Part shown: positions 4,741 through 35,808 of the stretch, in pieces
How the letters are laid out: every line of letters starts with the position of its first letter
How positions within the stretch are numbered: position 1 is the first letter of the stretch
Source: a virus
Reading direction: 5' to 3' (one strand)
Virus record (IMG/VR): IMGVR_UViG_3300013103_000029
Span: 1 to 37,418 of that record
DNA: 37,418 nucleotides
Notes under the pieces: model-generated
What the model saw: only the letters and a program-made list of their open reading frames with translations
Database searches by the model: none
Told to the model about the DNA's origin: nothing
Program-made: the position numbers and the translations under genes

Positions 4741-4748
4741 TATTTAAT
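4741..4748 (-). promoter_or_regulatory. Candidate late promoter box ATTAAATA
   Basis: ATTAAATA in coding-strand sense immediately follows the stop codon of the 1155-residue gene. It lies 49 nt upstream of ATG 4691. It is one of nine such boxes in the window. Confidence 0.6.
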
Positions 4749-7700
4749 TTATATTTCAACCGTGTTAAAACGTAAATTTGATATCACTGGTCTGTGTTCG
4801 TCATCACCAGTTGCCATTTCAAGTTTTATTCTTGTAAGGTCTTGGTCTACGTGGATAACATGGTTTCCACCATTTTGAAGAGCAAATGTAAATTTAAGTT
4901 CTTGCCAATCATTACCAAGTTCCTTCACCTTAGTCGCTCTTGTCATTGTTCTCCAAGATACAACTTGAGTATCTGCATCAATAATTTGAATCTTTGCCGT
5001 GATATTGGTGTTGTCAGGCTCGAAACAATCTATGAACGCTACTGCTTCAATATCTTGGTAATCAACTTCAATACCTTTAGAAGTATATGCTGAAGTTCTT
5101 TCAGACGTACCTATTGATAATTGAATGTTTGCATCCAACATAGGTGACTTATGTCCATTAGATGTCATAATAGCAGTGATTTTAATGTCACCAGTATATG
5201 AATCAGTTAATGGAATTTGGTCCATTGCGTCTACAATATATTCAGTTGGTACTGAAGATCCAGTTCTATCTAGAAGCTCAACTTTATACTTGATTGAAGT
5301 TCCTTCATAAACAGTTGCATCTGAAAGTAACATAAAGTCAGTTGCATTTGAAACACTTTTAGTTTCATAAACAAATTCACCGTTGTTATCAAACGCACAG
5401 TCATATAACCAGAATCTAATATCTTCTTTCTGATGAGGTGTCCAAGCCGAGTTGTTAGCACTTGAGAATAATACTCCCGTTTGGTACGCTGGGTCAGTCA
5501 ACCATCTTGAGTTTGCACCCAATGTTTTCTTACCTAGTTCAGCAACATGAATTTCAGCAGTTGGGTCATCATTAATAATAATAAACGCGTACTCTTTCAT
5601 TCCAGTCAAAAGAACCTTGTTATCAAAAACAAATTCTTGCTTTGTATTTATCGCAGCAAGGTCAGCAACTTTAACAGTTTTGGAAACTACTGATTTAGTC
5701 TTATCTGGCATACCAGCTGTAGTTTCAGTTATAATACAAGTAACATCAGTTACACTCTTTGTACTAAACATAACTTCTAATCTATCAAGTACAGTATCTT
5801 CTCTAAGGGTAAATGTCTGTGCAACTGGGTCACGTCTTACTGGACGCAAGTTTACATTTCTTATCCAAAGTCTTCTAATTACTCTTCTGAAATAAGTTGT
5901 CGTAACTGAAGTTACGGTTCTTGTTAATGGAATAGCTTGAAATACAGTTGTTCCTTCAACGCCTGAAACTGCTCCTTCTACACGAACTTCTTTTGCACCA
6001 CTAAGTGAATTATGAGGTACTGAGAAAGCACCTGACAATGTACCTTGAGCGTTCGCAGTCAATGTTCCACAAGACAACCCGTCCATAGTAATATTTACGA
6101 CTTCATTCGAGTTGAATGCTGCGTAATTAGAATTAATTCTTATTCCAATAGTAGGAATTATAGATGGAGTTCTCTTTGTACTAATTCTTGTTGAAGTTCT
6201 TGGCTTCAATGTGTACTTATTAGTATAATCATTAATATAGAAATAAGATTTATTCCAACCATTCCAATTATAACGCACTAAATGCGTATCAATCTTCAAT
6301 GTTTCTAGTTGTCTAAATCTATTGAAGTGTAAGTAATTTACTTTGTCAATCCATCTATATACAGAAGGAGTGATTTTAATCTTAGCTTGTGGTGGAGCTT
6401 GGAACAAGTATGAGTTTACTTTTCTAGACTTTGTCCAAAAAGGTTGTGAAAGAATATGTAGTGCACTTGGCGTACTATCCATTTCAAAATACTCTTGTTC
6501 TTCATGTAATTCATCCAATGCTAGGAAATCTTGAGTTGCCCAGTTGATATTCATAATCAAGTTATCACCAACACACATTGCTGTATTTTCTTGACCTTGA
6601 TCTCTACTGTCATCATCGTTAAATGTATCAACGAATGCACCTCTTAAAGAAGCTCCTGGTTGATTTTTCATCATATTGACTTCAAGCGCAACTCTACTCA
6701 AGTTATAATCATTGTCCTTAACTGCGTCAAGTATCAATTGAATATCTGACATTTTAAATGTTCTATTAGTAGTCAAGTTTACTACTGGATCAGCATCACC
6801 ACTAAGAAGTATCTCAGCAATCTTCAATGTCTTTTCAGTATCATTCTCAGGTGCTTTAGGAGTATCTTCTGCAGCAACGCCTTTAATAACCCCTAAATTT
6901 CCATTTGAATCAATGTAAACTGTGTCGATTCTTTTTAGAACAAAATCATAGTCATATTGAACTTGAGAACCGTTACCGAACCCGTGAATGTAAATACTTT
7001 TCTTATCAGAAGATAGTGTACCCATTGAATAGTTACCATCTGAAGAGAAGTTACTTTCTGTTTCTGTATACTGGTAATTAAACGTCGCAGTATAAGAAGA
7101 GTTTGGTGCTGGCTCTTGCCCACCATTTAACCAAGTGATTGTATCCCCTACAAGAGCATAATCTGTCCCTTGTACAAATACAGTACCACCTTGATTAATA
7201 TTTATAATTGATAATACTGGTTGATATTGTGCTGGTATTTCATCAGAAGCACCCGCAAAAGACCCGTGTGTCATTCCTAAATTGTTAGCAATTTTTGAAC
7301 CAGTAACTCTGAACGCTCTATTGACTGGAGTGTGTCTTACTGGATACCACCCATCAACCGAAAATGTTTGTGGTTCATTTTGCTTAAGTTCGAAATCAAC
7401 TAATGCATTCAATTCTAGGTATCTAGACTTTTCAACTTCATAGTTGTATCCATCAACGTTTGAAGAACCATCAGCTACATTGAACCAAAATGGACCTACG
7501 TTTGTTCCTATCGAACCATTGAATGGATTAGTAGTCCCGATGTATTCAATTTCATGACCGTTGATTAGGTAGTTTCCGTTTGAATTTCTATCGTATTTAG
7601 CTACTATGTCAACAACATCGCTTCTGTATTTTTCAAAACCATCTTCTTCTACTTCCATTGGAACTACAATTTCACCTTGTGCTATTGTAAATAAAGGGAA

Positions 7701-8216
7701 TAAGAGTGTATTGGATGCGTCAACATAACTGTCTTCAAGAATTACTTCACCAGTAATTTTTAGTCTTCCAGCACCAGCTTGTCCGTGGTTTCTTGTTTCA
7801 AGTGCAGGATCAAGTAATGTAGCATCATCATCATGTGTGATTTCTTCATATATAATCTTAGTTGCAATCTTAAATTCAGAAGTCAGAAGTGTCTCACCAG
7901 CTTTCGTAAATGAAGCTGGTGGCACGGAGACATATTCACCGTCCGCAAAAATAATACCACCTGATACATTAACAATAATGTCAGTAGTAACTCCATCAGC
8001 ATATTGAGTGTCAACCTCTATTCCACTAATAATACCACCATTAGCAACAAATCTTGATGCAATTTTAGAAAGGTCATTCTTTAGAGCAGATTGCATCTCA
8101 TTCATTTCAGCTGATTGTAATGCATCTCCTGCTCTAAATAATACTGCCTTATAATCTGAATGAGAAGGTTCAGTATCAAACCTATCATAGTATCTATCTA
8201 ATGTAATATCGTACAT
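4749..8216 (-). CDS. Large tail/baseplate-distal protein, paralogue A (DUF4815-like)
   Basis: This 1155-residue protein is the paralogue of the 1195-residue product encoded downstream. Similarity is visible over most of the length, and 43 bp are identical at the N-terminal LFRAGDALQSAEMNE block (8098-8140 against 4576-4618). The start is ATG 8216 with AAGGAG eight bases upstream (AAGGAGACTAAATG). It follows a 160-residue baseplate-like gene with a 9-nt gap, so it is probably co-transcribed from the box at 8733-8740. By position and size it is inferred to be an adsorption or fibre-network protein attached to the baseplate. No enzymatic motif was recognised. The DUF4815 label is tentative. Confidence 0.75.
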   Translation of the reverse strand: MYDITLDRYYDRFDTEPSHSDYKAVLFRAGDALQSAEMNEMQSALKNDLSKIASRFVANGGIISGIEVDTQYADGVTTDIIVNVSGGIIFADGEYVSVPPASFTKAGETLLTSEFKIATKIIYEEITHDDDATLLDPALETRNHGQAGAGRLKITGEVILEDSYVDASNTLLFPLFTIAQGEIVVPMEVEEDGFEKYRSDVVDIVAKYDRNSNGNYLINGHEIEYIGTTNPFNGSIGTNVGPFWFNVADGSSNVDGYNYEVEKSRYLELNALVDFELKQNEPQTFSVDGWYPVRHTPVNRAFRVTGSKIANNLGMTHGSFAGASDEIPAQYQPVLSIININQGGTVFVQGTDYALVGDTITWLNGGQEPAPNSSYTATFNYQYTETESNFSSDGNYSMGTLSSDKKSIYIHGFGNGSQVQYDYDFVLKRIDTVYIDSNGNLGVIKGVAAEDTPKAPENDTEKTLKIAEILLSGDADPVVNLTTNRTFKMSDIQLILDAVKDNDYNLSRVALEVNMMKNQPGASLRGAFVDTFNDDDSRDQGQENTAMCVGDNLIMNINWATQDFLALDELHEEQEYFEMDSTPSALHILSQPFWTKSRKVNSYLFQAPPQAKIKITPSVYRWIDKVNYLHFNRFRQLETLKIDTHLVRYNWNGWNKSYFYINDYTNKYTLKPRTSTRISTKRTPSIIPTIGIRINSNYAAFNSNEVVNITMDGLSCGTLTANAQGTLSGAFSVPHNSLSGAKEVRVEGAVSGVEGTTVFQAIPLTRTVTSVTTTYFRRVIRRLWIRNVNLRPVRRDPVAQTFTLREDTVLDRLEVMFSTKSVTDVTCIITETTAGMPDKTKSVVSKTVKVADLAAINTKQEFVFDNKVLLTGMKEYAFIIINDDPTAEIHVAELGKKTLGANSRWLTDPAYQTGVLFSSANNSAWTPHQKEDIRFWLYDCAFDNNGEFVYETKSVSNATDFMLLSDATVYEGTSIKYKVELLDRTGSSVPTEYIVDAMDQIPLTDSYTGDIKITAIMTSNGHKSPMLDANIQLSIGTSERTSAYTSKGIEVDYQDIEAVAFIDCFEPDNTNITAKIQIIDADTQVVSWRTMTRATKVKELGNDWQELKFTFALQNGGNHVIHVDQDLTRIKLEMATGDDEHRPVISNLRFNTVEI

Positions 8217-8225
8217 TTAGTCTCC

Positions 8226-8708
8226 TTAAAAAGTAATAACGTATTCGAAGATTTCTCTTGTAGCTGAGTTTCTGAATACAACGGGTTGGTTTTCTAAAAG
8301 AATTAGCTTCCCAACATTGTCTATGTTTGATGGTTGTAAATAATCTTCATTTTCTGAACCACTTGCTGGAACTGTGTCTGTGAATATCCCTAATTGATAA
8401 ATTGAATCACTTGAGTTCATTTCTTGTTCAAAAACAAATTTCAAATAAACAAACTTAGTTGGGTTCTGAGATATAGACCATTTTACGCCATCTATATCAA
8501 TAATACCAGCATTATCAGGAACTACATATTCCTTAACTTGTGATTTAATTCTACCAACTTCTAATGTTAATTGAGTTGAATTCAAATCTTCTGGAAGAGG
8601 AGCATCTGCCCACCCTTGCCCTGAGGGTAAAGAACCCCAACCTAATCTATAATCTTCATCGTACATCTCTTCAGCGAGTTTCACGTGTCCTACTTCTACC
8701 AATACCAT
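8226..8708 (-). CDS. Small baseplate-periphery protein, unknown
   Basis: This 160-residue protein has no motif I can assign with confidence. It contains a run rich in beta-strand-like residues (FVYLKFVFEQE, YQLGIFTDTV) and ends with a conserved-looking VFRNSATREIFEYVITF segment. That ending is reminiscent of small phage proteins encoded between the baseplate wedge and the tail fibres. ATG 8708 has AAGGAG upstream, and an ATTAAATA box lies 24 nt before it, so it likely heads a unit with the two large paralogues. A role as connector or chaperone for them is inference from position only. Confidence 0.6.
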   Translation of the reverse strand: MVLVEVGHVKLAEEMYDEDYRLGWGSLPSGQGWADAPLPEDLNSTQLTLEVGRIKSQVKEYVVPDNAGIIDIDGVKWSISQNPTKFVYLKFVFEQEMNSSDSIYQLGIFTDTVPASGSENEDYLQPSNIDNVGKLILLENQPVVFRNSATREIFEYVITF

Positions 8709-8732
8709 ATTATAACTCCTTTTTGTTTTTAT

Positions 8733-8740
8733 TATTTAAT
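8733..8740 (-). promoter_or_regulatory. Candidate late promoter box ATTAAATA
   Basis: ATTAAATA in coding-strand sense sits in a 39-nt gap, 24 nt upstream of ATG 8708, followed by an A-rich stretch and AAGGAG. It would drive the 160-residue gene and paralogue A. Confidence 0.6.
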
Positions 8741-10831: not shown

Positions 10832-12193
10832 CTATCTAGTGTAGTTAATGTTTAAATTTTCAATACTGTTCAATGGTTCAATATAAACATTTTCATCAAG
10901 TGTTGCATAAAATTTACCACCAGGAGCAAGATGAGTCAAATCAACAGCTATATCCGCACAAGCCAAGTAATACCCAGAGTATTTTATTTTGTTTTCTTTT
11001 TGTAATCTATAAGCACTAATTATATCTCTTAAGAATTCATCAGTATCGCTCCCCACATAATGGATACCGAAACTTAAAGTCAAGCGTTGGTCACTATATG
11101 GGTCAAGATATACCGTGTTAATTTGGGTAGCGTTTCCCCTTTTATTATTAATTAGTGTGTCTATTTCGAGCTTTACTTCTGGTGTTATGTAGTCTTCACG
11201 TGGAAGAATAGTAATATTTTCAGACGGGTATTCATCTTTCACTAATATATCATAAATGTATTGCCCAAATTCTCTCAATATACCATTTTCATAATCTTGT
11301 GTTTGAACCCAACGACCATCTACTGAATTTCTTATCGCAATCTTTCTTAAGATTTCCTTATCAATATATTTTGTTGGTTTTCTTAATACTTCATACCCTA
11401 AAATTTCAGATGCTTGTACCAATGCATTAAGGTTGATAGAGCTTGTTGAGAAATTTTCAAGTAAATCTTCACCGAATGAAATGAATGAGAAATTCACCTC
11501 ATCATTGATATTCAATCGCTTGCCTATCACACCATCACCGAATACTAACCGAGTGAAGTTTTCAAACGTTAGTCGTAAGCATGAATTCGGAAGTCTATCA
11601 TCATATAGGTTCAACTCCTCATCAATCAAGTCAATTGTATCGGCAGTACCGTCTTCAAGTGCAATTGAAAGTTCTTGGAACTCACCACTAATGTAAATGT
11701 GTTGAGCAGGAATATCAATTTGGTAGAATTCAGTAGCATCTAATGCAATCTTCTCAAATTTTTCTAGCGTACCTACAGTCACATTCACTTTATTTTCATT
11801 CCCGAATATATATTCGGTCTTTTCTATAACAATTAGGTCATAATTCTTATATGACCCGATAACTTCCCCACGATTTAACCATCCTGATGAGTAAGCTTCG
11901 AAAGTTATTTCTATTATGTATGACTTTGCTGGTGGACGGTAGACTCCCTTATTAATAGCCAATTCCGTGACACTAGAGTCTAATTTAGCATACTGTAATG
12001 TACTTTCTCTCACACGCATAAGATTATAGTGGTTTTTAATTGCTTGAGACCCAGCAATTAATTCAATGATAGTACGACCTGCACCACCTGCAAAATAGTC
12101 TTCCCATGCTTCTCCTTCAGGTAATGTTGAGACTGCATCCTGAAGTTCTTTAGCGATTGCTACTGGTGATAAATTCTTTTTACTGAATTTCAT
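10832..12193 (-). CDS. Baseplate wedge protein, gp6 / gpJ family
   Basis: This 453-residue protein is of the family that forms the baseplate inner-ring wedge dimer (T4 gp6, P2 gpJ). Supporting sequence is an N-terminal region with RTIIELIAGSQAIKNHY and the diagnostic VFGDGVIGKRLNINDEVNFSF around residues 216-236. The C-terminal half has a segment with VDLTHLAPGG near the end. The start codon at 12193 lies within the last 14 bases of the upstream gp25-like gene, indicating translational coupling; gp25 and gp6 proteins interact in the wedge in known phages. At 453 residues it is shorter than T4 gp6 (660), closer to the P2/Mu size class. Confidence 0.85.
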   Translation of the reverse strand: MKFSKKNLSPVAIAKELQDAVSTLPEGEAWEDYFAGGAGRTIIELIAGSQAIKNHYNLMRVRESTLQYAKLDSSVTELAINKGVYRPPAKSYIIEITFEAYSSGWLNRGEVIGSYKNYDLIVIEKTEYIFGNENKVNVTVGTLEKFEKIALDATEFYQIDIPAQHIYISGEFQELSIALEDGTADTIDLIDEELNLYDDRLPNSCLRLTFENFTRLVFGDGVIGKRLNINDEVNFSFISFGEDLLENFSTSSINLNALVQASEILGYEVLRKPTKYIDKEILRKIAIRNSVDGRWVQTQDYENGILREFGQYIYDILVKDEYPSENITILPREDYITPEVKLEIDTLINNKRGNATQINTVYLDPYSDQRLTLSFGIHYVGSDTDEFLRDIISAYRLQKENKIKYSGYYLACADIAVDLTHLAPGGKFYATLDENVYIEPLNSIENLNINYTR

Positions 12194-12575
12194 AAAAATT
12201 CCCCTTTTGTTTCCTTGATATTCTCGACTGATATAAATAAGTTTCAGAAACCTTTCCCTTTATAGAAAAAGCAATCTCAGCATATACTTCATGGTTGTCC
12301 GTTGACCGAACAAATGATAACCCGTTATCAATTTCAATTCTAGGTTCATGTTGTTTCAATGCGTCATAAATTTCTTTGTAAATTAACTTCTCAGCCACTG
12401 GTGTCAGTAGGTCAAAAAGAAATTGTTCTAAATTTATCCCAAACTCAGGGAAAAACAAACGTTCTCCCTTTTCTGTATTTAATATATTATGGATAGATTG
12501 ATATATGTCCTCGAGGTCAAAGATTTTATCTTGGACCAAAGGGTCTTGTTGATTTACGTCGCTATAAAATGTCAT
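12180..12575 (-). CDS. Baseplate wedge protein, gp25 / gpW family
   Basis: This 131-residue protein matches the length and motif pattern of the gp25-like family, which links the baseplate wedge to the sheath and starts sheath assembly. Visible family features are IYQSIHNILNTEKGERLFFPEFGINL near residues 25-50, where a GER..F.PEFG pattern is typical. The HEPRIEI segment corresponds to the conserved EPR core. The family was once called a lysozyme but is structural. It overlaps the gp6-like gene by 14 bases. Start ATG 12575 has a GGAG ribosome-binding site. Confidence 0.88.
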   Translation of the reverse strand: MTFYSDVNQQDPLVQDKIFDLEDIYQSIHNILNTEKGERLFFPEFGINLEQFLFDLLTPVAEKLIYKEIYDALKQHEPRIEIDNGLSFVRSTDNHEVYAEIAFSIKGKVSETYLYQSRISRKQKGNFYEIQ

Positions 12576-15216: not shown

Positions 15217-15849
15217 TTAATGACCTATGAACCATGACTTTACAAAATCCTTATCAAACTCTCTTGATGGATTTAATGTCATGTCTATTTTTGCCCACAA
15301 AGGAATATTAGTACCCTTCACGCGTTGTTTAGAAATTTCTACTTGTGCGTTCGATATAACCCACGCATCAGGTGCATAAAACCAATCCCCAATCCAAATT
15401 GAAACTTGGTTAATTTGAGTTCCCGCAGCATTGGTAGCATAACCACCAGGAGTTGTTTGGAACATACCACCAGCATGTTGACCAGGAAGTACATAGTCCC
15501 AAACCTTCTTCACCTCAACTAGAGGATTGATGCCACTCTTATGAGCAATTACAGTTATACTGAAAGGTACAGCATTAAATGCCGAGTTCTGCCAAGTAAC
15601 TGTAGACATTCTAAATGATCTAAAAACTTTGTCCGATTGAATAGTATTGGCTGCCATCTTCCCTGCAGATTCAATTGTTTCATCGGCACCTTTCCAAGGA
15701 ATAGAAGTATCATATGTTGAACTTGCCCCAAATGTCGTCGACCCATCAACGAACCCCCACATTGCTTGGGTCAGTGGTCCACCAGTAATGATTGCGAGGT
15801 TTTTATTTCCCCTTTGGTATAAACCGTCTATGTAGTAATTATTGTCCAT
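15217..15849 (-). CDS. Baseplate tube-extension protein (gp48/gp54-type tube-like fold), probable
   Basis: This 210-residue protein follows the tape measure gene. The C-terminal segment (WVISNAQVEISKQRVKGTNIPLWAKIDMTLNPSREF) has the strand pattern QVxxSxQxVxGxxxPLxAxxxxTL seen in tube-like baseplate proteins that join the tube to the hub. An FSITVIAHKSGINPLVEVKKVWDYVLPG segment is also typical of tube-fold proteins. It heads the baseplate unit: ATG 15849 has TAGGAGATAAAG upstream and an ATTAAATA box 20 nt upstream. Exact T4 equivalence is uncertain. Confidence 0.65.
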   Translation of the reverse strand: MDNNYYIDGLYQRGNKNLAIITGGPLTQAMWGFVDGSTTFGASSTYDTSIPWKGADETIESAGKMAANTIQSDKVFRSFRMSTVTWQNSAFNAVPFSITVIAHKSGINPLVEVKKVWDYVLPGQHAGGMFQTTPGGYATNAAGTQINQVSIWIGDWFYAPDAWVISNAQVEISKQRVKGTNIPLWAKIDMTLNPSREFDKDFVKSWFIGH

Positions 15850-15869: not shown

Positions 15870-15877
15870 TATTTAAT
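15870..15877 (-). promoter_or_regulatory. Candidate late promoter box ATTAAATA
   Basis: ATTAAATA in coding-strand sense lies in the 43-nt gap after the tape measure stop codon, 20 nt upstream of ATG 15849. It would drive the seven-gene baseplate cluster down to the 691-residue protein. Confidence 0.6.
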
Positions 15878-21131: not shown

Positions 21132-21939
21132 TACCTAAGATTTCTTTACCATCTTCATTGTGTTCTTTATTCAGTTTATTTTTACAGTTAAACTTTAAAC
21201 TCTGTACACCATGGAATAATGATACGTCTATTGTCTCCAATAGATTGATATTAACCCCGTTCATCACCTCTTTAATAATTTCAACTCTATCTGACTCTGC
21301 ACCATCAACAATACAGTTCGCCATATACAAATCAAGATCTTCCCTCTTACCATCCTTAACCATCTTTTTAAATCTGCCAATAGTAATTGGCGTGAAGTTT
21401 ATCTTAGATGCCTCATAGTCTGTACTCGTGCTTTTAAACGTACTATCTAGGTCAACTGTAATGGGTAACGGTACTCTAATCTCTTCAAATAATAAATCAT
21501 TAACTGAAAATGGAGCTTTGTTCAATGCCCCACAACTCGAACATTCATAACTCATATTGAATTCAAGTTCACCGAATGTTGCTAATTTAATCATCGTCAC
21601 TATATAATAGAAATCGAAGTAAGTCAAATCTTCCGTTGGGAAATTAGAATGAATCTTCTTCAAGAAAAAGTTTATGGTCTCAGTGTCTGATAATGTACTA
21701 ACACTAAGATATTTCATTTCACCGAATGTCAGTGGGGAATAATATAGTTCAAGACCATCTCCATAAGCCTTACCACCTGATGGCAAAGTTTCAGGCACAA
21801 GATTGTTTACTGATGATGGGCGTTCACCCTCTGGGATGACTGGTTTTGGTTCAGGGACAATCATAGTATCGTTTTCTTCAGCGATACGTTTTGCTTCCAA
21901 GCTTTCTGCGTATGTAATAGGTCGTAATCTTTCTGTCAT
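21016..21939 (-). CDS. gp26-like baseplate hub assembly / tail assembly chaperone-like protein
   Basis: This 307-residue protein precedes the tape measure gene. After an N-terminal extension, the LPSGGKAYGDGLELYYSPLTFGEMKYL block (residues ~52-78) matches the style of T4 gp26-like baseplate proteins and their relatives. Cys133/Cys136 (CSSC) with Cys252 and Cys274 could bind zinc. The position immediately before the tape measure, plus the overlapping +1 frame, fits the tail assembly chaperone (gpG/gpGT) arrangement. The start ATG 21939 has AAGGATAAAAT upstream and an ATTAAATA box 30 nt upstream. Which role dominates, hub assembly or chaperone, cannot be decided from sequence alone. Confidence 0.7.
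   Translation of the reverse strand: MTERLRPITYAESLEAKRIAEENDTMIVPEPKPVIPEGERPSSVNNLVPETLPSGGKAYGDGLELYYSPLTFGEMKYLSVSTLSDTETINFFLKKIHSNFPTEDLTYFDFYYIVTMIKLATFGELEFNMSYECSSCGALNKAPFSVNDLLFEEIRVPLPITVDLDSTFKSTSTDYEASKINFTPITIGRFKKMVKDGKREDLDLYMANCIVDGAESDRVEIIKEVMNGVNINLLETIDVSLFHGVQSLKFNCKNKLNKEHNEDGKEILGSGEVCGRLHDIPFLDIIEYVSSTDRTKDSLRKRIHFGV
21036..21040 (-). other. Candidate +1 frameshift site (A5 run)
   Basis: On the coding strand, frame 0 reads CTT AGA AAA AGA ATC and ends at a TAA 24 bases beyond the A-run. A +1 slip of tRNA-Lys on AAA gives GAA TCC ATT TTG and the extension ORF. A -1 shift would not reach the extension frame; +1 (or -2) is required. The exact site is inference. Confidence 0.4.
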
Positions 21940-21969
21940 ATTTTATCCTTTTTATTTAAACATTTTATG

Positions 21970-21977
21970 TATTTAAT
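21970..21977 (-). promoter_or_regulatory. Candidate late promoter box ATTAAATA
   Basis: ATTAAATA in coding-strand sense lies 30 nt upstream of ATG 21939, in the 125-nt divergent gap shared with the plus-strand gene. A near-copy (TTTAAATA) lies at 21953-21960. It would drive the chaperone-like and tape measure genes. Confidence 0.6.
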
Positions 21978-22022
21978 TTGGCCAAAGGATTGTGTTCATG
22001 GATAATTAAGCAAGATCAAAGG

Positions 22023-22038
22023 TATAATAGGGTATAAT
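22023..22038 (+). promoter_or_regulatory. Tandem TATAAT boxes, candidate promoter of the plus-strand gene
   Basis: The decamer GGTATAATAG occurs twice in tandem at 22021-22040, placing consensus -10 hexamers at 22023-22028 and 22033-22038. They lie 26 nt or more upstream of ATG 22065. No good -35 hexamer is visible at 16-18 nt spacing, so activity is uncertain. The element differs from the ATTAAATA box used on the other strand, which suggests recognition by the host's main sigma factor. Confidence 0.45.
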
Positions 22039-22064
22039 AGGGGAAAGAATTTAAAGGATAAAAA

Positions 22065-22355
22065 ATGAGAAAAGGTTTTGTTGATATATTATTACTGTTG
22101 ATTATTTTATTTGGTTTACCCATTTACATCATGATAACGATTGCTCAAGATCACTTTGATGAAATTAATAAACATATCCAAAGTGGTGGTGGGATTCTGT
22201 GTACGCAATATGATAGTAATGGTACTATCATAAAGTCTATAAAAATTACTGATTATACTAATTGGACATTAACTGAAAAGAATATTGAGAATGATGGAGT
22301 GATGTTAAATTTAATGAAGTGTGAGAAAGTTATTGAGATAAATGGAGTAGAGTAG
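22065..22355 (+). CDS. Small single-pass membrane protein on opposite strand, moron-like, unknown
   Basis: This 96-residue ORF is the only convincing plus-strand gene. It starts at ATG 22065 with AAAGGATAAAA upstream. Residues ~7-27 form one hydrophobic membrane segment after a short basic N-terminus (MRKG). The remaining ~70 residues are soluble and probably outside the cytoplasmic membrane, with Cys46 and Cys86 able to form a disulphide. Its stop codon abuts the stop of the convergent tube-like gene with no gap. Size and topology fit superinfection exclusion or lysis-control proteins (antiholin RI-like topology), but I see no sequence match. Own promoter-like boxes and opposite orientation suggest a moron acquired into the tail operon. 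Confidence 0.7.
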   Translation: MRKGFVDILLLLIILFGLPIYIMITIAQDHFDEINKHIQSGGGILCTQYDSNGTIIKSIKITDYTNWTLTEKNIENDGVMLNLMKCEKVIEINGVE

Positions 22356-23459: not shown

Positions 23460-25838
23460 TTAAGCCGAAAATTCTACTTCATTGTTATTAATGATAGTAG
23501 TAAAGTTAATAAATTCAATAGAATAAATTGGTCTAATATAAACATCTACATTTAATGTATTGTTCACCTCATCTGCTGGAGAGTTGTTTGTAGCATCACA
23601 CACAACTTTAAAGTCAGATATACCGTCTCTTGAGTGAATATCAGTCAAGTAATTTCTGATTGTAGTAGCAATTGATGCTCTTATATTACCAGTATTAAGT
23701 TCGAACAAGTAGTGCTCAAGGAATGCAGCGATCGCTGGCTTCAATGTGTTAAGAAGCAATCTGATGTTTATTCTATCAAATGCTGAAGGAATAAGAGCTT
23801 GAGTCAATTGACCCCAAATAGCCACACCTTTTCCTGGAGCAAATCTGATTTGGTTAATCCCTTTGTCTGCAAGCAAGTCAAGGTCTCCATCAGTAAACTT
23901 AATATGAACATCATTAACAAACATTCTACCTCTTTTAAATCCTGCTGGTGGATACCAGATTTCATAGTTCGAAGCTGAAAGGTTGATTGCTGCTGCAGCA
24001 AAACCGTCTGGAGAAATAAATATTTCTCTGTTATTATACTTGTCTGTAATCTTAACATGTGAAGTATAAAGACCAGCAAATGAAGTGTTTAGGTTCAATG
24101 TTGTTGTTCTGTAATCTACGATGTCTTGTACATAAGAAATTGGATTCATTTCAACTTCATAAGGAACTGAAAGAACTGCAAATGCGTCATCTCTGCGCTC
24201 ACAAATTTGTGCGATTTTTCTTTGATACGCTGGAGCTGTCCAACCACCATCAAGGAATACTGAAAGAGGATAGTTGTTTTTATTATCCATAAGTTCTGCT
24301 GCAAAGATCATTTCTGAATCTGTTACTGCTTCACCGTCATCACCACCAACAAATTTGATGAAATTCTTTTCAATCACGTTACCTTCTGAATCTCTCACTA
24401 CAGTTTCTCTTGGCATTACTGCTTTATCGATAACTGGGTTTGAAATTGCATTGATATAGCTTGAAGCTTGAAGAACAGTTTCTACGAACATGTTTCTACC
24501 GTACCCGTCAACTGCGTCAATATCTCTTGAACAAATCCACTTTTCTAATGGGTTCACAGTATTTGATTTAGCATAAACATTAATTTCAAATGCATCTGGA
24601 GTTCTAAGTCCTTCTGTGATAACCTCAACTCTTACATCTTTTGACCAATCACCCTCATTAATAGAGAACAAAGCCACAACTGAATAGAAATCAGATGGGT
24701 CAAAGTTTACAAGATCACCTTCTGGTTGTTCAATAGTAGAAGCATCTGCAAAACCGTCAGCTTGTGCTGCTTGGTATGGTGCTTCACCAGTTGAAACATC
24801 AATAAGTGATGGGTTGTTGATACCAGATTCGAAATCGATCTCAGCACCATTTACGTTGCTGACAACTGAACTAATAACAAGTGTTGAAGCGTCATTCATA
24901 TCAGCGACGATATCTAGCGTTTCACCTTCAAGATCATCAATAGTCATATATGCCGGAGCAATATTTGAAATTGTTACCTTATCAGCACCATCAACAATTC
25001 CTGTTACAGATGAAGTGATTGCTGGTTTTCCTCTAAATCCTGAACCAATTTGGTTCGTTACTGAAGGAGTTGCAACGTCAACTGTTAAAGTTGAAGCAGT
25101 TACGTCAGTTACTGTTCTTGAGAATTTTACACCATCTGCTACAAAAGAAATTACTCTATTGTTAAGGTCAGATGGAGTTCCAGTTGAAAGATTTGATACG
25201 TCAATAGTAGTTGCACCACCACCTGCACCAAAGTCTGCGTCAAAAGAAATAAATTCAGCACTCTCTGCAACTGTTCCTGCACCAGTACCTACAAAAGATA
25301 CACTTGAAACAACTGGAGCATCTAGTGTTAATTCAACACCATTCACTGAAGCAACAACATAAGTTACTTGACCAGCACCTAGAATGTTAATTGTTCTACC
25401 AACCAATTCGTCTGGAGTTCCACCGATGATGCTACCAACAGTAACTTTGTCGGAACCATCAACTATATTAGAAACTGAAAATGAAATTGCTTTCAACTCT
25501 GGAGAAGTTTCATTAATTTGTTTATATACATCGCTAACAGTACCTGCTTGGTTTACGAAAGCCCCACCGTTAAGTGCTCCGTTTGCAACTCTAATTGTCC
25601 ATAGTGAATTTGTTTGTTGTAGAACTGTGAGTGCACTGTAATATGCAATATTGTATCCTACCTTAATTGTTCCGTCTGGCGTAAATCTATTCAATAGATC
25701 ATTCTCTCCAGTTACTAACACTGGAACGTTAATTGGTCCTTTCTTAGCTGGAATACATATAGCGTTATAAACACCTTCATTTCCACCTACTCTTGGCACC
25801 ATCGCCTTTTCGAAAGTTCGTACGTTTGCTGCTGGCAT
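23460..25838 (-). CDS. Tail sheath protein with inserted repeat modules
   Basis: This 792-residue protein is the contractile sheath. The C-terminal domain carries family signatures: INLSASNYEIWYPPAGFKRGRM, FAPGKGVAIWGQLTQ, SAFDRINIRLLLNTLKPAI and the final IEFINFTTIINNN strand that joins subunits. Residues 1-~112 form the start of the sheath fold (VPRVGGNEGVYN ... ITVPV-like strands). Between ~113 and ~350 are three related beta-rich modules, beginning near residues 117, 206 and 275, containing IVDGSDKVTVGSIIGG, TTIDVSNLSTG and IVDGADKVTISNI. They probably decorate the sheath surface. The core resumes at ~380. Length exceeds T4 gp18 (659). Confidence 0.95.
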   Translation of the reverse strand: MPAANVRTFEKAMVPRVGGNEGVYNAICIPAKKGPINVPVLVTGENDLLNRFTPDGTIKVGYNIAYYSALTVLQQTNSLWTIRVANGALNGGAFVNQAGTVSDVYKQINETSPELKAISFSVSNIVDGSDKVTVGSIIGGTPDELVGRTINILGAGQVTYVVASVNGVELTLDAPVVSSVSFVGTGAGTVAESAEFISFDADFGAGGGATTIDVSNLSTGTPSDLNNRVISFVADGVKFSRTVTDVTASTLTVDVATPSVTNQIGSGFRGKPAITSSVTGIVDGADKVTISNIAPAYMTIDDLEGETLDIVADMNDASTLVISSVVSNVNGAEIDFESGINNPSLIDVSTGEAPYQAAQADGFADASTIEQPEGDLVNFDPSDFYSVVALFSINEGDWSKDVRVEVITEGLRTPDAFEINVYAKSNTVNPLEKWICSRDIDAVDGYGRNMFVETVLQASSYINAISNPVIDKAVMPRETVVRDSEGNVIEKNFIKFVGGDDGEAVTDSEMIFAAELMDNKNNYPLSVFLDGGWTAPAYQRKIAQICERRDDAFAVLSVPYEVEMNPISYVQDIVDYRTTTLNLNTSFAGLYTSHVKITDKYNNREIFISPDGFAAAAINLSASNYEIWYPPAGFKRGRMFVNDVHIKFTDGDLDLLADKGINQIRFAPGKGVAIWGQLTQALIPSAFDRINIRLLLNTLKPAIAAFLEHYLFELNTGNIRASIATTIRNYLTDIHSRDGISDFKVVCDATNNSPADEVNNTLNVDVYIRPIYSIEFINFTTIINNNEVEFSA

Positions 25839-25853: not shown

Positions 25854-26009
25854 TTATTTTACTTGAACTTTTCTTAGTCCAGCTGGTAAAACAGCTGGCA
25901 AAAGTTCAGGGTTATTGATTTTAATAGTCTCACTTGGTGACACTACGATTGTTTGTCCATTATATTTCACAGAAACTGGGTAATTTACTGTGGAAATTAT
26001 CTTAGTCAT
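25854..26009 (-). CDS. 51-residue small protein upstream of sheath
   Basis: An ATG at 26009 with AAGGAGATTTAT upstream opens a 51-codon frame ending at TAA 25854-25856. The product begins MTKIISTVNYPVSVKYNG and ends LPAGLRKVQVK. A 25-nt spacing to an ATTAAATA box and a 15-nt gap to the sheath start, which has its own AAGGAGG, support it as a real gene at the head of the sheath unit. Sequence resembles a short beta-hairpin protein with a Pro-rich C-terminus (PELLPAVLPAGL). I recognise no family. Such small ORFs before the sheath could encode a tail assembly or decoration peptide. Confidence 0.7.
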   Translation of the reverse strand: MTKIISTVNYPVSVKYNGQTIVVSPSETIKINNPELLPAVLPAGLRKVQVK

Positions 26010-26034: not shown

Positions 26035-26042
26035 TATTTAAT
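26035..26042 (-). promoter_or_regulatory. Candidate late promoter box ATTAAATA
   Basis: ATTAAATA in coding-strand sense lies in a 48-nt gap, 25 nt upstream of ATG 26009. It would drive the 51-residue gene, the sheath and both tube genes. Confidence 0.6.
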
Positions 26043-29410: not shown

Positions 29411-29788
29411 TTACTTTTCTTCAGTCTCAATCTTTACAGACTTCTTACGACCTCTTGCTGGTGCTTTCTTAGCTTCAACTTTCGGCTCCTCTTTCACTTC
29501 TTCTTTAATCTCTTTCTTTGCAACTTTTGGCTTAGATTCAGATTTAGGAGCTACTTTAGGTGCTTCTGTTTTTGCTTCAACTTTAGGTGCTTTTACTTCA
29601 CCTTCTTCCTTGAGAGTTAGTGTCATGTACGACGCTGGAAAAGTTACACTATGTCTTTCATTAATGAATACTTCAATATCAGTACCCTTTCTCAGTGTAT
29701 AAGGTTTTCCATCAACTCTAAACATTACCGAACCGTCGTTGTCTGTACTCGCAACGTACAACCCAGTCTTTCTAGTGGCTTTCTTCAT
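29411..29788 (-). CDS. Small protein with Lys/Glu/Ala/Pro-rich tail, unknown
   Basis: This 125-residue protein has an N-terminal ~60-residue beta-rich domain (SVMFRVDGKPYTLRKGTDIEVFINERHSVTF) and a disordered C-terminal tail of KVEAK, KEEVK and APKV motifs. It is the first gene after the capsid terminator and has its own ATTAAATA box 34 nt upstream. Small beta-domain proteins in this place may decorate the capsid or bind its vertices, but there is no recognisable family here. ATG 29788 has AAGGAG upstream. Confidence 0.55.
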   Translation of the reverse strand: MKKATRKTGLYVASTDNDGSVMFRVDGKPYTLRKGTDIEVFINERHSVTFPASYMTLTLKEEGEVKAPKVEAKTEAPKVAPKSESKPKVAKKEIKEEVKEEPKVEAKKAPARGRKKSVKIETEEK

Positions 29789-29822: not shown

Positions 29823-29830
29823 TATTTAAT
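29823..29830 (-). promoter_or_regulatory. Candidate late promoter box ATTAAATA
   Basis: ATTAAATA in coding-strand sense lies 34 nt upstream of ATG 29788, just downstream of the capsid terminator. It would restart transcription for the seven decoration and neck genes. Confidence 0.6.
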
Positions 29831-29924: not shown

Positions 29925-31319
29925 TTATGCAGTAACGATTGTGATCTTAGTGATCAATGTTGGAACTGGAGCCAACATACCAGCTTGAAGTGCCACACCT
30001 TTTTGAGACTTCAATGGGTTGTGATCAATACCGTCAGTCATATTCGTTACGAATAGTGGAAGGTAAGGAGCATATACCAAAGATGTATCAAACATAGATG
30101 TACCTTTTGAGATCATAAGAATCTCTTGATCAGGAACTACAGATGATCTAAGAACTGGCTTACCATCAAGTGTACCGAAGAAGTGAGTACCAAGTACTGC
30201 ATTCAAGTCACCAGCTGGTTTGAAACCAGGAAGAGTTCTAATAATTGCTGTTGCTTGGTGTCCTGCAACTAGAGCTGATGCTCCACCTGATCTACCAGCG
30301 TTGTTAAGAATCATTGATTCAGCGTATGCCAATGCATCAAAGAAAGTAAGCTTGTGCTCTGTGAATGAAATTCCTGCAGGTGCAGTTTTGTTCCAGTCAA
30401 TGTTTCCAGTTGCATTTACATATGCTTCCATAACTACGTTTGAAGCAACTTCAGTTGTAAGTTCTTGAGTCAAGTCCTTAGCCATTGTTTCTTCTACGTT
30501 AATTCCGAATCTTTTACCCAATGAGTAAGATTTGAATAGACCGATATCACTTCTTAGTGCATAAGTACGTGCTCTAATTGGTAGTGAGTCGAATTCACTT
30601 CTAATAGTAGGGATTTCTGTAAGTGCTTCAAAGTTTGTTGCATAGTTTACAGTTACGTCTGAACCAGCTTCTGGAGCTACAAGGAATGTTGCTGAGAACG
30701 CACCTGATTCATAATTGATAACACCTGAACCACCAACACCAATCAAGTTACCTTGACCATCATCGATAAGTTTCTTTTGCTCACCACCAACAGTAGCGTA
30801 AACTTCAACTTCTCTCTTACGAACTGGCATATATACCACTGTTCCTGAGAATGTCAATGTAGCGTCATCACCAGCACCGATAACTTCACCTTTAATGTCT
30901 TCACCAGCATAGTTTGTAGTTCTCTTAACACGACCATGAATTGGGTCTACCAATACGTCGTTATCAACAACACCACCTCTAGTTGTTTCAGCGATAACAT
31001 TCTTGAAGTAGATTGTACCTTGTTGCTCTTGCAACGGCTGAATAGATGCGATCAAAGGAATTGGAGACTGTGCTGTAGATGCAGTAATAACATCAAGTGC
31101 AATGTTTGGAAGAACACCAAGGTCACCGTAACCACCATTAGCTTCTGAGAATGCTTGGAAGTTTTCATACTGCTCTAGTTGAGTACCTAGTGCAAAAAGA
31201 TCTTCGTTTGTAACACCTCTTGTTTTAGCTACTGTCGACTTGTTTTCAAAGAAAGTCATGTAGTCTGAGTATTTGTCGAAAAATTGTTCAACTTTTTCGT
31301 GTAATTTAATTTGTTCCAC
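29925..31319 (-). CDS. Major capsid protein, T4 gp23-like
   Basis: This 464-residue protein forms the head shell with the HK97 fold. Family signs are PIPLIASIQPLQEQQGTIYF near residue 90 (gp23 has an equivalent VQPM...G.IYA block) and the C-terminal SKGTSMFDTSLVYAPYLPLFVT followed by QKGVALQAGM. The middle (about 145-235) has a beta-rich part with GVINYESGAFSATFLVAPEAGSDVTVNY, likely in the extended-loop or an inserted subdomain. The start is GTG 31319 with AGGAGGATATAAAC upstream. The gene is flanked by its own ATTAAATA box 104 nt upstream and a strong terminator, so it appears to be a one-gene unit. It is shorter than T4 gp23 (521 residues). Confidence 0.93.
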   Translation of the reverse strand: MEQIKLHEKVEQFFDKYSDYMTFFENKSTVAKTRGVTNEDLFALGTQLEQYENFQAFSEANGGYGDLGVLPNIALDVITASTAQSPIPLIASIQPLQEQQGTIYFKNVIAETTRGGVVDNDVLVDPIHGRVKRTTNYAGEDIKGEVIGAGDDATLTFSGTVVYMPVRKREVEVYATVGGEQKKLIDDGQGNLIGVGGSGVINYESGAFSATFLVAPEAGSDVTVNYATNFEALTEIPTIRSEFDSLPIRARTYALRSDIGLFKSYSLGKRFGINVEETMAKDLTQELTTEVASNVVMEAYVNATGNIDWNKTAPAGISFTEHKLTFFDALAYAESMILNNAGRSGGASALVAGHQATAIIRTLPGFKPAGDLNAVLGTHFFGTLDGKPVLRSSVVPDQEILMISKGTSMFDTSLVYAPYLPLFVTNMTDGIDHNPLKSQKGVALQAGMLAPVPTLITKITIVTA

Positions 31320-31325: not shown

Positions 31326-31339
31326 ATCCTCCTAAGGAT
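31326..31339 (-). promoter_or_regulatory. Small hairpin over the capsid ribosome-binding site
   Basis: ATCCT and AGGAT form a 5-bp stem with loop TAGG, placing part of the TAGGAGG Shine-Dalgarno sequence in the hairpin, 6 nt from the GTG start. The stem is short and could be coincidental. Confidence 0.3.
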
Positions 31340-31423
31340 TAATTTGTTTTTTGTTTAAATTTGCATTTGTCGGAGGGCATTTTGTGCTACCGAATCAGAC
31401 TCAACAATCTTTTAACTTACAGT

Positions 31424-31431
31424 TATTTAAT
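31424..31431 (-). promoter_or_regulatory. Candidate late promoter box ATTAAATA of the capsid gene
   Basis: ATTAAATA in coding-strand sense lies in the 170-nt gap between protease-scaffold and capsid genes, 104 nt upstream of the GTG start. It is the longest box-to-start distance in the window and gives the capsid mRNA a leader of about 95 nt. Apart from this box and the ribosome-binding site region, I see nothing else in the gap. Confidence 0.6.
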
Positions 31432-31489: not shown

Positions 31490-33529
31490 TTATCTAGTCA
31501 AACCCTCAAGGAATTTAGATTTAGACTCTGAGTGTCTTGATGAAGGTTTGTATTCAGGAATATCAGGGATGACTGCTGACGCAGACTCACGCTTAATGAT
31601 CTTTTCTTCCTTTTGAAGATTAGCCACTAAGTCCTTTTCATTTTTATATGTTTCCATAAGCTTCTTAACTTCTGGCAACTCTACCTTATATACATTCGAA
31701 TAATACTTAGCTTTAGTCTCAAGCATTGCTTCCCTATATTCAGATGAAAGTTGTACAGCCTTGACTTTGTCTTTCTTGTACCCTTCTACCTTATTTTCCA
31801 ATTCTTCATATAACCCAGTAACTTCATCATATTCCTTTTTCTTGTCTTCAAGTATTTCACGGAACAACTCTTTATCCTTCTCTTCCTTCTCATCGATTGA
31901 GTCATTGAGTTTATTGAAGTCTTCAGATATATAATTGAATTTGTCTTCGAGTTCTTTATACTCACGTTGTGCTTCATCGAGCTTTTCTTCAATAGAAATA
32001 CGCTTATTAACTTCAGACTCAAGCTCTTCACTTAATTCTTCAGCGTGTTTCTTTTCTTTGATAATAGTCTCATGAATATCTTCAGGTACTTTATACTCGA
32101 TCTTTGTTTCAGTAACCTTCTCAATCTTAGGAGCTTTGGTCATTTCTTCATCAAGCTTCTTAGTAAGGAATTTAGTCGCTTCTTTCATTTGAAGTAATTG
32201 ACCCTTAAGTTCACGGATAGCATCTTCATCCTGAACCTTAGTTATCTTTTCCATTATAACGATTTCAGGCTTCATAAGAGTCATGACATAGTCAACAAAT
32301 GATTCTCCTGCTGCTTTTACTTCAGTTGAGTCATCTTCAGTGTCTTTTCCCTTTGGTTTATCATCTTCACGCTCTTCAGCATTTTTTCCTTCTTTGTCTT
32401 CTTTCTCATTATCGTCACCGTCATCATTCATTTTACTAGCAAGTTCTTTAATACGCTCACATGTACCAGTGATAGATTCTTCAACATCTTTCTCTTTAAG
32501 GATTTCATCACAAATCTTATCAAGCTCTTCCATATCTGAAGTAGTGAGTTTTGAATCTTTGTCTAGGAATTCAATAAGTTGGTCATAATACTTTTCATAT
32601 TCAACATTATAACGAACCAACTTAGTAAGCAACTCAACATATGATACATAGTTCATCATAAGTTTTGCTGATACCATCATATCGTCGTCTGCAGTTTCTT
32701 CATCAACCTTATCAATCAATATGTTGTTTTCATTCACCACGTTTTCTAACATAGTAATTACGTCTTCCTTACTTAACTCCTCTAATAAATCTCTATCAAT
32801 ATTCACATTATCCCCTTTTACCTCGGATTCTCCAGGTATTTCATTTTTATTAATCATATCATCAATCACCTCATTCTGTGAGGGGAACTTTAGTCCACAA
32901 ATTCCATCTATACAGTCAACTGGGTGATCAATAGCTTTTTCTTGTAAAGCCAAAAAGTCTTCTTGTAGTGCTTCCATAAGCTTTGGTTTGGTCTCTAGGA
33001 ATCCTGGTTGGATAACAAAGTCAATACTTTCGATGACAAAGTTTTTCTCATCTAACACTTTATATTTCTTTCCATTCTTACTCTTGGTCTCATTACTGAA
33101 ACCACCAAACGCTCTAGTTGATACATACATGTCCGAACCTGAACGTAAAATAGTATTGAGGATTCTACCTGACTCAGTATCGAGTATTTCATAGTCAGCC
33201 ATACCTTCGCCAGTCTTTTCATCAATATAGATTTTAGTGACCTTGTGAGATACACGTCCTGATTCAAGTAATTCATCTAAGCTGTAATCTTTTGGGTGAC
33301 CAATACAACCGAACATAAGCCCTCTACTAAGAGCTTCTTTTGTATCAGCGTTCTTTAGTGCATTTTCCCAAAGCTTCTTAGGATAGAATCTACCGTTTCT
33401 AGAGTACCCGTCTAAGAAGAACGATGGTCCTGAAACCTTAGCCAGAACCCCTTCTTGAAGTTTCGAAGCACTAGCTTCTGTTATGACTAATCCCTTTACG
33501 TCGTGATTTTCATATAAATAGTTTTTCAT
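31490..33529 (-). CDS. Prohead protease fused to coiled-coil scaffold-like region
   Basis: This 679-residue protein has an N-terminal prohead serine protease domain (about residues 25-185). It carries NGRFYPKKLW, GCIGHPKDYS with candidate catalytic His78, MYVSTRAFG with candidate Ser137 and IESIDFVIQPGF, as in the gp21-like families. Residues ~240-679 are highly charged and coiled-coil-like (KEDKEGKNAEEREDDK; long Glu/Lys helices), typical of scaffold or prohead-core proteins that the protease later degrades. A GTG at 32806 in the same frame is preceded by AAAAGGGGATAAT and could start the scaffold part separately (438 residues). The main start ATG 33529 has TAGGAC upstream, a weak site, and an ATTAAATA box 26 nt upstream. 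Confidence 0.88.
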   Translation of the reverse strand: MKNYLYENHDVKGLVITEASASKLQEGVLAKVSGPSFFLDGYSRNGRFYPKKLWENALKNADTKEALSRGLMFGCIGHPKDYSLDELLESGRVSHKVTKIYIDEKTGEGMADYEILDTESGRILNTILRSGSDMYVSTRAFGGFSNETKSKNGKKYKVLDEKNFVIESIDFVIQPGFLETKPKLMEALQEDFLALQEKAIDHPVDCIDGICGLKFPSQNEVIDDMINKNEIPGESEVKGDNVNIDRDLLEELSKEDVITMLENVVNENNILIDKVDEETADDDMMVSAKLMMNYVSYVELLTKLVRYNVEYEKYYDQLIEFLDKDSKLTTSDMEELDKICDEILKEKDVEESITGTCERIKELASKMNDDGDDNEKEDKEGKNAEEREDDKPKGKDTEDDSTEVKAAGESFVDYVMTLMKPEIVIMEKITKVQDEDAIRELKGQLLQMKEATKFLTKKLDEEMTKAPKIEKVTETKIEYKVPEDIHETIIKEKKHAEELSEELESEVNKRISIEEKLDEAQREYKELEDKFNYISEDFNKLNDSIDEKEEKDKELFREILEDKKKEYDEVTGLYEELENKVEGYKKDKVKAVQLSSEYREAMLETKAKYYSNVYKVELPEVKKLMETYKNEKDLVANLQKEEKIIKRESASAVIPDIPEYKPSSRHSESKSKFLEGLTR
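32804..32817 (-). promoter_or_regulatory. Candidate internal ribosome-binding site and GTG start for a scaffold product
   Basis: The coding-strand sequence AAGGGGATAATGTG places a Shine-Dalgarno-like AGGGG five bases before a GTG that encodes residue 242 of the 679-residue protein, at the protease/coiled-coil boundary. Initiation here would make a 438-residue scaffold without protease. Confidence 0.45.
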
Positions 33530-33544: not shown

Positions 33545-34273
33545 TTAGTTTTTATTATTTAATAAGTCTTCAAATACTGAATCTAACTTATCGAATGTCT
33601 CGTTACTAGGAGCCAACGGGTCTGATTTCTGAACAGCTTGTAACATAGCTCTGAACATTTCATCGTCTTGGTCATTCCGCATACCAACTAATTCCCTCTT
33701 AGCATACATATACATTTTAGGGTCATTAAAGAATTGAACCATGTCTGTTAATAGATCATAATTTTCCTTTTCAATTTTTCCTGAAACATATGCTGCTAAC
33801 AACTCTACCTTTAGTACACTAGAGTCCTTAACAAAGGCATCAAGCAACTCTAAGAACTGGACCATGGCTTCGGCATCAGCTTCATAATATTGAAGCTCAA
33901 GGTACAAATGTGTTTCTATTGAACTTAGACCAAGGAGTGCATCATTAACTTGTGTCATTGAAAGGTCAACATAATTCATGCCTGAAATTAAATCTTGATT
34001 ATAGTACGCTGTGCTGCCAGAAGTTGATTCTCTTAACGCGTTGAATCTACCTAGTGCTCTATGAAATCTCTTACCAGCTGTTGATTTGTTCCATTTCGCA
34101 ATACCCTTCTTCATACCAGCTTTATTTCTACGCCATTGGTTCTTCATATTTCTTGAAGCATTATGGTCTTTAGCAGTCTTGACCTTAGCCATACCAATTC
34201 TCTTCTTAACCTCTACCTCATTAAGCCCTAATACTTTATATTGAACCTCATCTAATTTAGTTTTGAATTTCAT
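33545..34273 (-). CDS. Basic protein between portal and protease, prohead-core candidate
   Basis: This 242-residue protein has a very basic N-terminal ~85 residues (KNQWRRNKAGMKKGIAKWNK region) and a helical, acidic C-terminal part (THLYLELQYYEADAEAMVQFLELLDAF). T4 encodes small prohead-core proteins gp67/gp68 at this place, but I see no clear sequence match. The basic end could contact DNA or acidic scaffold. It follows the portal stop by 9 nt, and its last codons contain an ATTAAATA box for the next gene. Confidence 0.55.
   Translation of the reverse strand: MKFKTKLDEVQYKVLGLNEVEVKKRIGMAKVKTAKDHNASRNMKNQWRRNKAGMKKGIAKWNKSTAGKRFHRALGRFNALRESTSGSTAYYNQDLISGMNYVDLSMTQVNDALLGLSSIETHLYLELQYYEADAEAMVQFLELLDAFVKDSSVLKVELLAAYVSGKIEKENYDLLTDMVQFFNDPKMYMYAKRELVGMRNDQDDEMFRAMLQAVQKSDPLAPSNETFDKLDSVFEDLLNNKN
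33556..33563 (-). promoter_or_regulatory. Candidate late promoter box ATTAAATA within a gene's last codons
   Basis: ATTAAATA in coding-strand sense overlaps the codons for the LLNN segment near the C-terminus of the 242-residue protein. It lies 26 nt upstream of ATG 33529 of the protease-scaffold gene. Confidence 0.55.
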
Positions 34274-34282: not shown

Positions 34283-35779
34283 TTACCAATCTGAACTTTT
34301 GTCATCTTCACCATTATCTCCAGCAGCATCTGTTTCCTTCAATTGAAAGATATCGAAACCAGCCATAGTAGCAAATTGTTTATTCAAGAACTTAACATAC
34401 TCTTCCATATTGATATCTATTTCATCATGGTCTTCAAAATCTGTTACGAATGATTTGAAGTTATCTACCATTGACACCGTAAGGTCTAAGAATTCAAGAC
34501 GCTCAAGGTCATCTGTGTTCAATATGTTTAAGAATGTAATCTCAATGTTTTCCTTGACATAGTTTCTGAACCCTATGTTAGTCAAGTGGACAATGATTAG
34601 TCTTTGTAGACCTTCCTTAAGTGCAAATTGAATACTTTTAAGTTTCTTAGTATATCGAATATGATCCTTAATTACGTCTGACTTAATACCTTCTTCATCA
34701 ATAATTGAAGCTGGTACACCAATAGTGCTTAGTGCCATCTTTCTTATATCAACAATCTTTTCATGCATCTCATCATAATTACTATCTGAATTAAAGTCCT
34801 CAGCTTGTAGCTCACCTTTGTCACCAAAGTTAGGAATAACCTTTACTTCACCGACTCTAGCTCCTACAGTCTTAAGGATTTCATCGTCTGACTTTTCAGC
34901 TGTACTGACTCTAAGAGTTTTGTTTACCATTTTCTCATACATCTGTGCAATCTTTTGTGCTTCTGCTGGCTTAGTAGTCGCAGGCACTGATACAGATACG
35001 AGCTTGGTTGCTAAAGCATCGTTAATGAATCCCAACGGCACTAAGTTCTCAAGAAACTTTAGCTCTTTAATTAGTCCGTAAGATGGGTATAATACTGATT
35101 TCCCCATTCTAAGATAAAGAACCTTTTCATTAAGCCCGTCAACCTTTACTCTAATCCTTGACGATGGTAATGAAAAGTATATCATTGATGTTGGTTGTAA
35201 CGTTTCAATTTTCTTTTTACCTAATGACAAGTAGTAACTTACATCACTGTCTCTAAATACTGGGATAACTGTTGTCATATCCACGTCATCGTGAATTGTC
35301 ATAATACCTTTTTTAGTACCGTGTTCATCACCTTGACCGTTTACATCTATTCTTAAAAAGTATTCTCCATAGTATAGTAAGTCATTAGCTATATCTACAA
35401 TCATCTTTTGTATATTGAATTCATCAACAAAATCATTTACCAATTTTGAAGTAGCTTCATCGACTTCACCGACTGAATTCTTAATCTTAACGTCAAATAG
35501 CTTATGCTCATTTCCCGTTGGGTTCAATGCATCATCCATAATTCTGTCAACTATCAATTGACTAAAATAGAAGTTCTTTATTGAATCTATATCTGCAATA
35601 ATTCCTTTCTTTGTTTCATTAATTTCCAAAAACTTTGTTAGTAAAATATTATTAACTGATGGTTCTACGTCTCCGTGGTTTACCATTTGCTGTGCTTGTA
35701 CTGCAGGGTCTAACTGCATTGACCAGCCAAAAAGTTTGTTGGTTAAATTTGAAAAGTTGTCACCTAGTTCTTTAAACAT
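34283..35779 (-). CDS. Portal protein, T4 gp20-like
   Basis: This 498-residue protein is the head-vertex portal through which DNA is packaged. Family features visible are LLYYGEYFLRID near residue 140, GKSVLYPSYGLIKELKFLENLV around 228-249, the EVKVIPNFGDKGEL block and LSTIGVPASIIDEEG followed by a long amphipathic helix (YTKKLKSIQFALKEGLQRLIIVHL). Length agrees with T4 gp20 (524). It lies between terminase and the prohead genes, in the normal order. ATG 35779 has AAGGAGAACAT upstream and an ATTAAATA box 21 nt upstream. The acidic C-terminus (DNGEDDKSSDW) is typical of exposed tails. Confidence 0.9.
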   Translation of the reverse strand: MFKELGDNFSNLTNKLFGWSMQLDPAVQAQQMVNHGDVEPSVNNILLTKFLEINETKKGIIADIDSIKNFYFSQLIVDRIMDDALNPTGNEHKLFDVKIKNSVGEVDEATSKLVNDFVDEFNIQKMIVDIANDLLYYGEYFLRIDVNGQGDEHGTKKGIMTIHDDVDMTTVIPVFRDSDVSYYLSLGKKKIETLQPTSMIYFSLPSSRIRVKVDGLNEKVLYLRMGKSVLYPSYGLIKELKFLENLVPLGFINDALATKLVSVSVPATTKPAEAQKIAQMYEKMVNKTLRVSTAEKSDDEILKTVGARVGEVKVIPNFGDKGELQAEDFNSDSNYDEMHEKIVDIRKMALSTIGVPASIIDEEGIKSDVIKDHIRYTKKLKSIQFALKEGLQRLIIVHLTNIGFRNYVKENIEITFLNILNTDDLERLEFLDLTVSMVDNFKSFVTDFEDHDEIDINMEEYVKFLNKQFATMAGFDIFQLKETDAAGDNGEDDKSSDW

Positions 35780-35800
35780 ATGTTCTCCTTTGATTTTAAC

Positions 35801-35808
35801 TATTTAAT
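35801..35808 (-). promoter_or_regulatory. Candidate late promoter box ATTAAATA
   Basis: ATTAAATA in coding-strand sense lies in the 40-nt gap between terminase stop and portal start, 21 nt upstream of ATG 35779, followed by an A-rich stretch and AAGGAG. Confidence 0.6.

Follow-up and report, generated by a model that had tools for sequence, protein, structure and literature searches.

A predicted T4-type late promoter box with AT at -13/-12 in an uncultured phage

Which polymerase would read the AT-rich octamer ATTAAATA, which recurs between the genes of an uncultured phage, and for what kind of transcription? The stretch of DNA analyzed here (the window) is a 37,418-base IMG/VR fragment (G000), in which head and tail genes form a block on the minus strand. 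Family matches identify genes for the head protease, the capsid, the tail sheath, the tail tube and the baseplate hub, the terminase was assigned by homology and the portal by synteny with annotated phages, and a tRNA search of the window revealed none. For comparison we used 13 related IMG/VR contigs, two of them about 155 kb long (G009 and G011); genes were called by a small finder based on codon usage, and its calls for the window agreed with the gene set there except for small differences. An earlier note on this DNA had read the octamer as a late promoter for a gp55-like sigma factor with altered specificity, and both the conservation of the box and the presence of gp55-like genes in the relatives support this reading. 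Judged from the sequence data, ATTAAATA is very probably the -13 to -6 element of late promoters in a T4-superfamily myovirus with a gp55-type system, and the evidence from the relatives argues for a gp55-type late promoter that carries AT instead of TA at -13/-12.

Octamers in the gaps between genes

The nine coordinates at which the earlier note placed ATTAAATA are all exact and lie on the minus (coding) strand, and the plus strand of the window holds none. Late boxes are located at 35801-35808 upstream of the portal gene (34283-35779; predicted +1 at 35795), at 33556-33563 upstream of the head protease gene (31490-33529; predicted +1 at 33550), at 31424-31431 upstream of the major capsid gene (29925-31319; predicted +1 at 31418, leader about 100 nt) and at 29823-29830 upstream of gene 29411-29788 (predicted +1 at 29817). 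Behind the capsid gene there is a terminator-like hairpin (29900-29875), and the last of these boxes lies some 45 nt further downstream. Further along the coding strand, boxes precede gene 25854-26009 together with the tail sheath gene 23460-25838 (box 26035-26042, predicted +1 at 26029), the baseplate-hub-like gene 21016-21939 (21970-21977, predicted +1 at 21964), gene 15217-15849 (15870-15877, predicted +1 at 15864), gene 8226-8708 (8733-8740, predicted +1 at 8727) and gene 1104-4691 (4741-4748, predicted +1 at 4735). The distances of these nine boxes to the start codon are 20, 21, 24, 25, 26, 30, 34, 49 and 104 nt, and the copy at 33556-33563 does, as described before, overlap the end of a gene, namely the 3' end of gene 33545-34273. 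A tenth copy, absent from the earlier list, lies at 12476-12483 (-) within gene 12180-12575; it combines the octamer with an A at the sixth base after the box (box+6), and its role as a promoter is doubtful. As a separate observation, genes 1104-4691 and 4749-8216 (-) are adjoining long paralogues, which share one best match in G009.

It had also been claimed that each gap of at least 39 nt contains exactly one box. This holds for the eight true gaps, but plain ORF calling gives nine, of which the 107-nt gap 20909-21015 is boxless. As a small ORF conserved in the relatives fills this gap, the statement stands for true gaps. The ORF encodes about 35 amino acids (20901 to about 21007, minus strand) and is situated between the hub-like and the tape-measure-like gene; short genes at the matching place occur in the phages Melnitz and CP81 as well. 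The longest gap of the window (21940-22355, 416 nt) harbors a box and, in addition, an ORF with a hydrophobic N-terminus (22065-22355, plus strand), the sole plus-strand gene called, for which no match was found among the genes of three relatives.

The total of ten copies in the window is modest, as shuffling gave a mean of 4.9 and at least ten copies in 5 of 100 shuffles. The distribution over the gaps is different: ATTAAATA is present in 8 of the 25 window gaps versus a mean of 0.33 in dinucleotide shuffles, and in none of 3000 shuffles did any 8-mer reach eight gaps (largest number, 6).

Predicted start position and conservation in related contigs

An alignment of box contexts, for which TTAAATA alone was required, comprised 83 contexts from ten records, including the window. 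An A is found at -13 in 71% of them; counted from the end of the box, the sixth base is A in 85% and the seventh in 72%. The T4 late box has been placed at -13 to -6 (PMC1524935), and with the same placement these two bases correspond to +1 and +2. We therefore infer that transcription would start at the A at box+6, which falls within the range of 6-12 nt downstream predicted in the earlier note and is present at all eight non-genic boxes of the window and also at the ninth at 33556. The signal is weaker in G011 (0.58). The identical pipeline applied to the T4 late region yielded 11 TATAAATA boxes, 73% of which have A at box+6, and it also recovered the published CTAAATA of phage Aeh1. The absence of a consistent -35 element was confirmed, because none was visible in the 83 aligned contexts, nor was there any other upstream element or an extended -10. 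Sigma-70-like sites in the window occur at chance level, and the boxes do not conform to a host sigma-70 promoter (-35 hexamer and TATAAT at a spacing of 16-18 nt).

We compared the junctions upstream of orthologues of the window genes in 11 contigs, that is ten contigs and the more distant G011. At junctions orthologous to boxed window junctions xTTAAATA was present in 56 of 64 cases, 42 of them exactly ATTAAATA, and at junctions orthologous to unboxed ones in 10 of 147. For gaps of at least 30 nt the numbers are 46/50 (boxed) versus 5/26 (unboxed), and the comparison of all boxed junctions (56/64) with unboxed gaps of at least 30 nt (5/26) gives a Fisher p of 9e-10. The other 55 words composed of five A and three T average 4.9. 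This conservation reaches down to about 54-87% capsid identity. Enrichment outside the window, as implied by the earlier reading, was found; most close relatives show it clearly, the AT-richest ones (G003 and G011) less strongly. At the portal junction, all 12 relatives readable there have xTTAAATA or a T4-type box, and at the head protease junction nine relatives carry ATTAAATA. The box at 15870-15877 is matched by xTTAAATA in three of five relatives and that at 8733-8740 is conserved in three of three; the box at 4741-4748 was conserved in none of the three relatives readable at that junction. The sister contigs G010 and G013 (54% capsid identity) have a T4-type box, TATAAATA or AATAAATA, at the portal junction, and AATAAATA is also located upstream of their capsid gene, directly ahead of a conserved leader element.

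This leader element is the 15-base sequence GGTAGCAMARAATGC (31377-31391, minus strand), positioned in the window between the late box and the capsid start. Related contigs with this element have a single copy, always upstream of the capsid gene, contigs with TATAAATA included. A comparison with Rfam gave no match for the element, and exact 16-mer hits outside the window's group look like chance matches. Furthermore, the palindrome ATCCTTAGGAGGAT (about 31327-31340, minus strand) places the Shine-Dalgarno sequence of the capsid gene inside a small predicted hairpin, which is conserved in several relatives; a translational control of the capsid gene by this hairpin is possible.

Late-transcription genes and alternative readings

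A search for the gp55-, gp33- and gp45-like proteins expected from the earlier reading was positive for gp55 and gp45 in both G009 and G011, and for gp33 with support in G011 and tentatively in G009. The gp55-like proteins match phrog_234 at 4e-11 (G009) and 5e-13 (G011). The gp45-like clamp was detected at 1.3e-20 in G011, where it is 35.5% identical over 228 aa to the corresponding protein of G009, and a clamp is also present in G013; the fragments of G010 and G013 do not include a gp55 gene. The gp33-like protein scored 1.6e-5 in G011, and the candidate in G009 shows weak homology to the G011 protein; a gp44-like loader is encoded in both. Genes for gp55, gp33, gp45 and gp44 are absent from the 37-kb window, which is a fragment, and judging from its relatives the phage would be expected to carry them. 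A phmmer search with the G009 sigma against PDB sequences gave no match, a scan of viral contigs with each gp55-like sigma returned only its own record, and AlphaFold2 modelling of the gp55-like pair reached a pLDDT of 49. A "sigma factor" annotated between capsid and sheath in a Cobetia phage was rejected, since it has no PHROG support.

In G009, 19 late boxes are situated in the virion region (145-155 kb plus 0-43 kb), which makes up a third of the record, and 11 elsewhere on the coding strand. Host-type GTATAATA elements are distributed the other way round, with 35 of 39 outside the virion region (Fisher p 5e-6). One of them, at 41393, precedes the gp55-like gene (41428-41913), and the endonuclease VII-like gene just before gp55 has a ATTAAATA box. 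In G011, reading by eye places TTGACT-17-TATAAT ahead of the gp55-like gene and TTGAAA-17-TATAAT ahead of the clamp gene. The host-type promoters of G009 have the form TTAAGC..TAAGC..GTATAATATAGTATA (39 sites, mostly at 41-144 kb), in which TTAAG repeats at intervals of about one turn of the helix. We take them to resemble the sigma-70 promoters of Campylobacterota, which would be a hint at the host.

If the boxes were -10 elements for a host sigma factor, no phage sigma would be needed. They are AT-rich and lie at -10 relative to the conserved A, and the capsid protein, when scanned against cellular genomes, gave no relative that would point to a host. Nevertheless, we regard this explanation as very unlikely, because the boxes stand without -35 or extended -10, clear host-type promoters (GTATAATA; TTGACT-17-TATAAT) are found in front of other genes of the relatives including gp55, at orthologous junctions the sister contigs show the T4 late box, and the relatives encode a late sigma.

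A function in the mRNA, as RNase processing sites or ribosome-binding enhancers between genes, would fit AU-rich, strand-specific sequences closely upstream of start codons. However, in line with the earlier statement that boxes are absent from short gaps, short gaps with a good Shine-Dalgarno sequence are never boxed, the spacing to the start codon is variable (about 16 to 114 nt) whereas that to the A at box+6 is fixed, and a terminator-like hairpin lies directly before one box; we consider such signals slightly less probable still than host -10 elements. That the pattern arose by chance, or follows from AT-rich gaps and the TAA of stop codons, is extremely unlikely: the genome is AT-rich and the count in the whole window alone is unremarkable, but no shuffle placed any 8-mer in eight gaps, and the conservation at orthologous junctions refutes it.

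A possible change of sigma specificity at the -12 base

For sigma replacement and clamp-activated transcription, the late system of T4 is a textbook example. Its promoter (TATAAATA, used with gp55, gp33 and gp45) and the boxes of the window have in common the core TAAATA at -11 to -6, the lack of a -35 element, the position ahead of virion genes and an A or purine at box+6, and the relatives have gp55-, gp45- and gp44-like genes together with a gp33-like gene that is tentative in G009. One difference is at -13/-12, which is TA in T4 and AT in the window. As this pair varies among T4-like phages (PMC1524935), AT can be regarded as a variant and membership is not excluded. The published precedent is the Aeromonas phage Aeh1, a T4-like phage with the late promoter a/gCTAAATA and hence a changed -12 (PMC1524935; PMC2988020), but there C stands at -12 and mostly G or A at -13, and the gp55 of Aeh1 has retained Y97, with differences at L54 and R57. 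A single T4 site with a change from TA to AT is noted in a review (PMC2988020). The Campylobacter phage CP81 and the Methylophilales phage Melnitz likewise encode a gp55-like protein and have boxes with a TAAATA core ahead of genes, but both keep TATAAATA and Y97. Among the matches listed in a literature search there was no phage late promoter spelled ATTAAATA, which does not prove novelty, and among those listed for TAAATA and late promoters none had this spelling by title. What may be new is the AT spelling at -13/-12 of a gp55-type promoter; a change at -12 is already published for Aeh1.

In the cryo-EM structure of the T4 complex, the adenine at -12 flips into a pocket, where it stacks on gp55 Y97, and those at -9 and -8 make contacts with N13/H95 and T99 (PMC7892883). 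An alignment of eleven gp55 proteins has Y at residue 97 in nine (T4, Aeh1, nt-1, S-RIM8, S-N03, Melnitz, Atu_ph07, CsaM_leB and CP81) and W in both proteins of the window's group (G009, where it is W118 of the protein, and G011). This is a correlation and not a proof, two sequences are few, and the alignment near residue 97 runs across an insertion. The insertion lies before the recognition helix; furthermore, the group has S or T at T99 and D at N13. The comparison of gp55 with promoters covered T4, nt-1, Aeh1, Melnitz and CP81. L54/R57 was dropped as a determinant of -12, since CP81 retains TATAAATA in spite of I/M at these positions, which leaves residue 97 as the only one that separates the groups. 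With a little less than an even chance, in our estimation, the late sigma of the phage clade changed its specificity at -12, from A to T, through an altered gp55 pocket (Y97W, to which the adjacent insertion may have contributed), the promoters changing along with it and the sister contigs keeping the T4-type box.

According to the gp55-type model, host RNA polymerase would act early in infection on host-type promoters, including one ahead of the gp55-like gene of the relatives. The gp55-like sigma would then bring the host core polymerase to ATTAAATA, standing alone without a -35, and a gp45-like sliding clamp and a gp33-like coactivator would link late transcription to replication. Starting at the A six bases past the box, transcripts would have mostly short leaders with a Shine-Dalgarno sequence, and each box would drive one block of head or tail genes. 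Recognition of the box by the sigma and the late timing are both inferred from sequence comparison. Many late promoters with one base changed, unchanged contigs alongside and a candidate pocket residue would show, as in a natural experiment, the joint change of a sigma factor and its set of promoters, and the box may serve as a simple marker of late operons in uncultured phages of this group.
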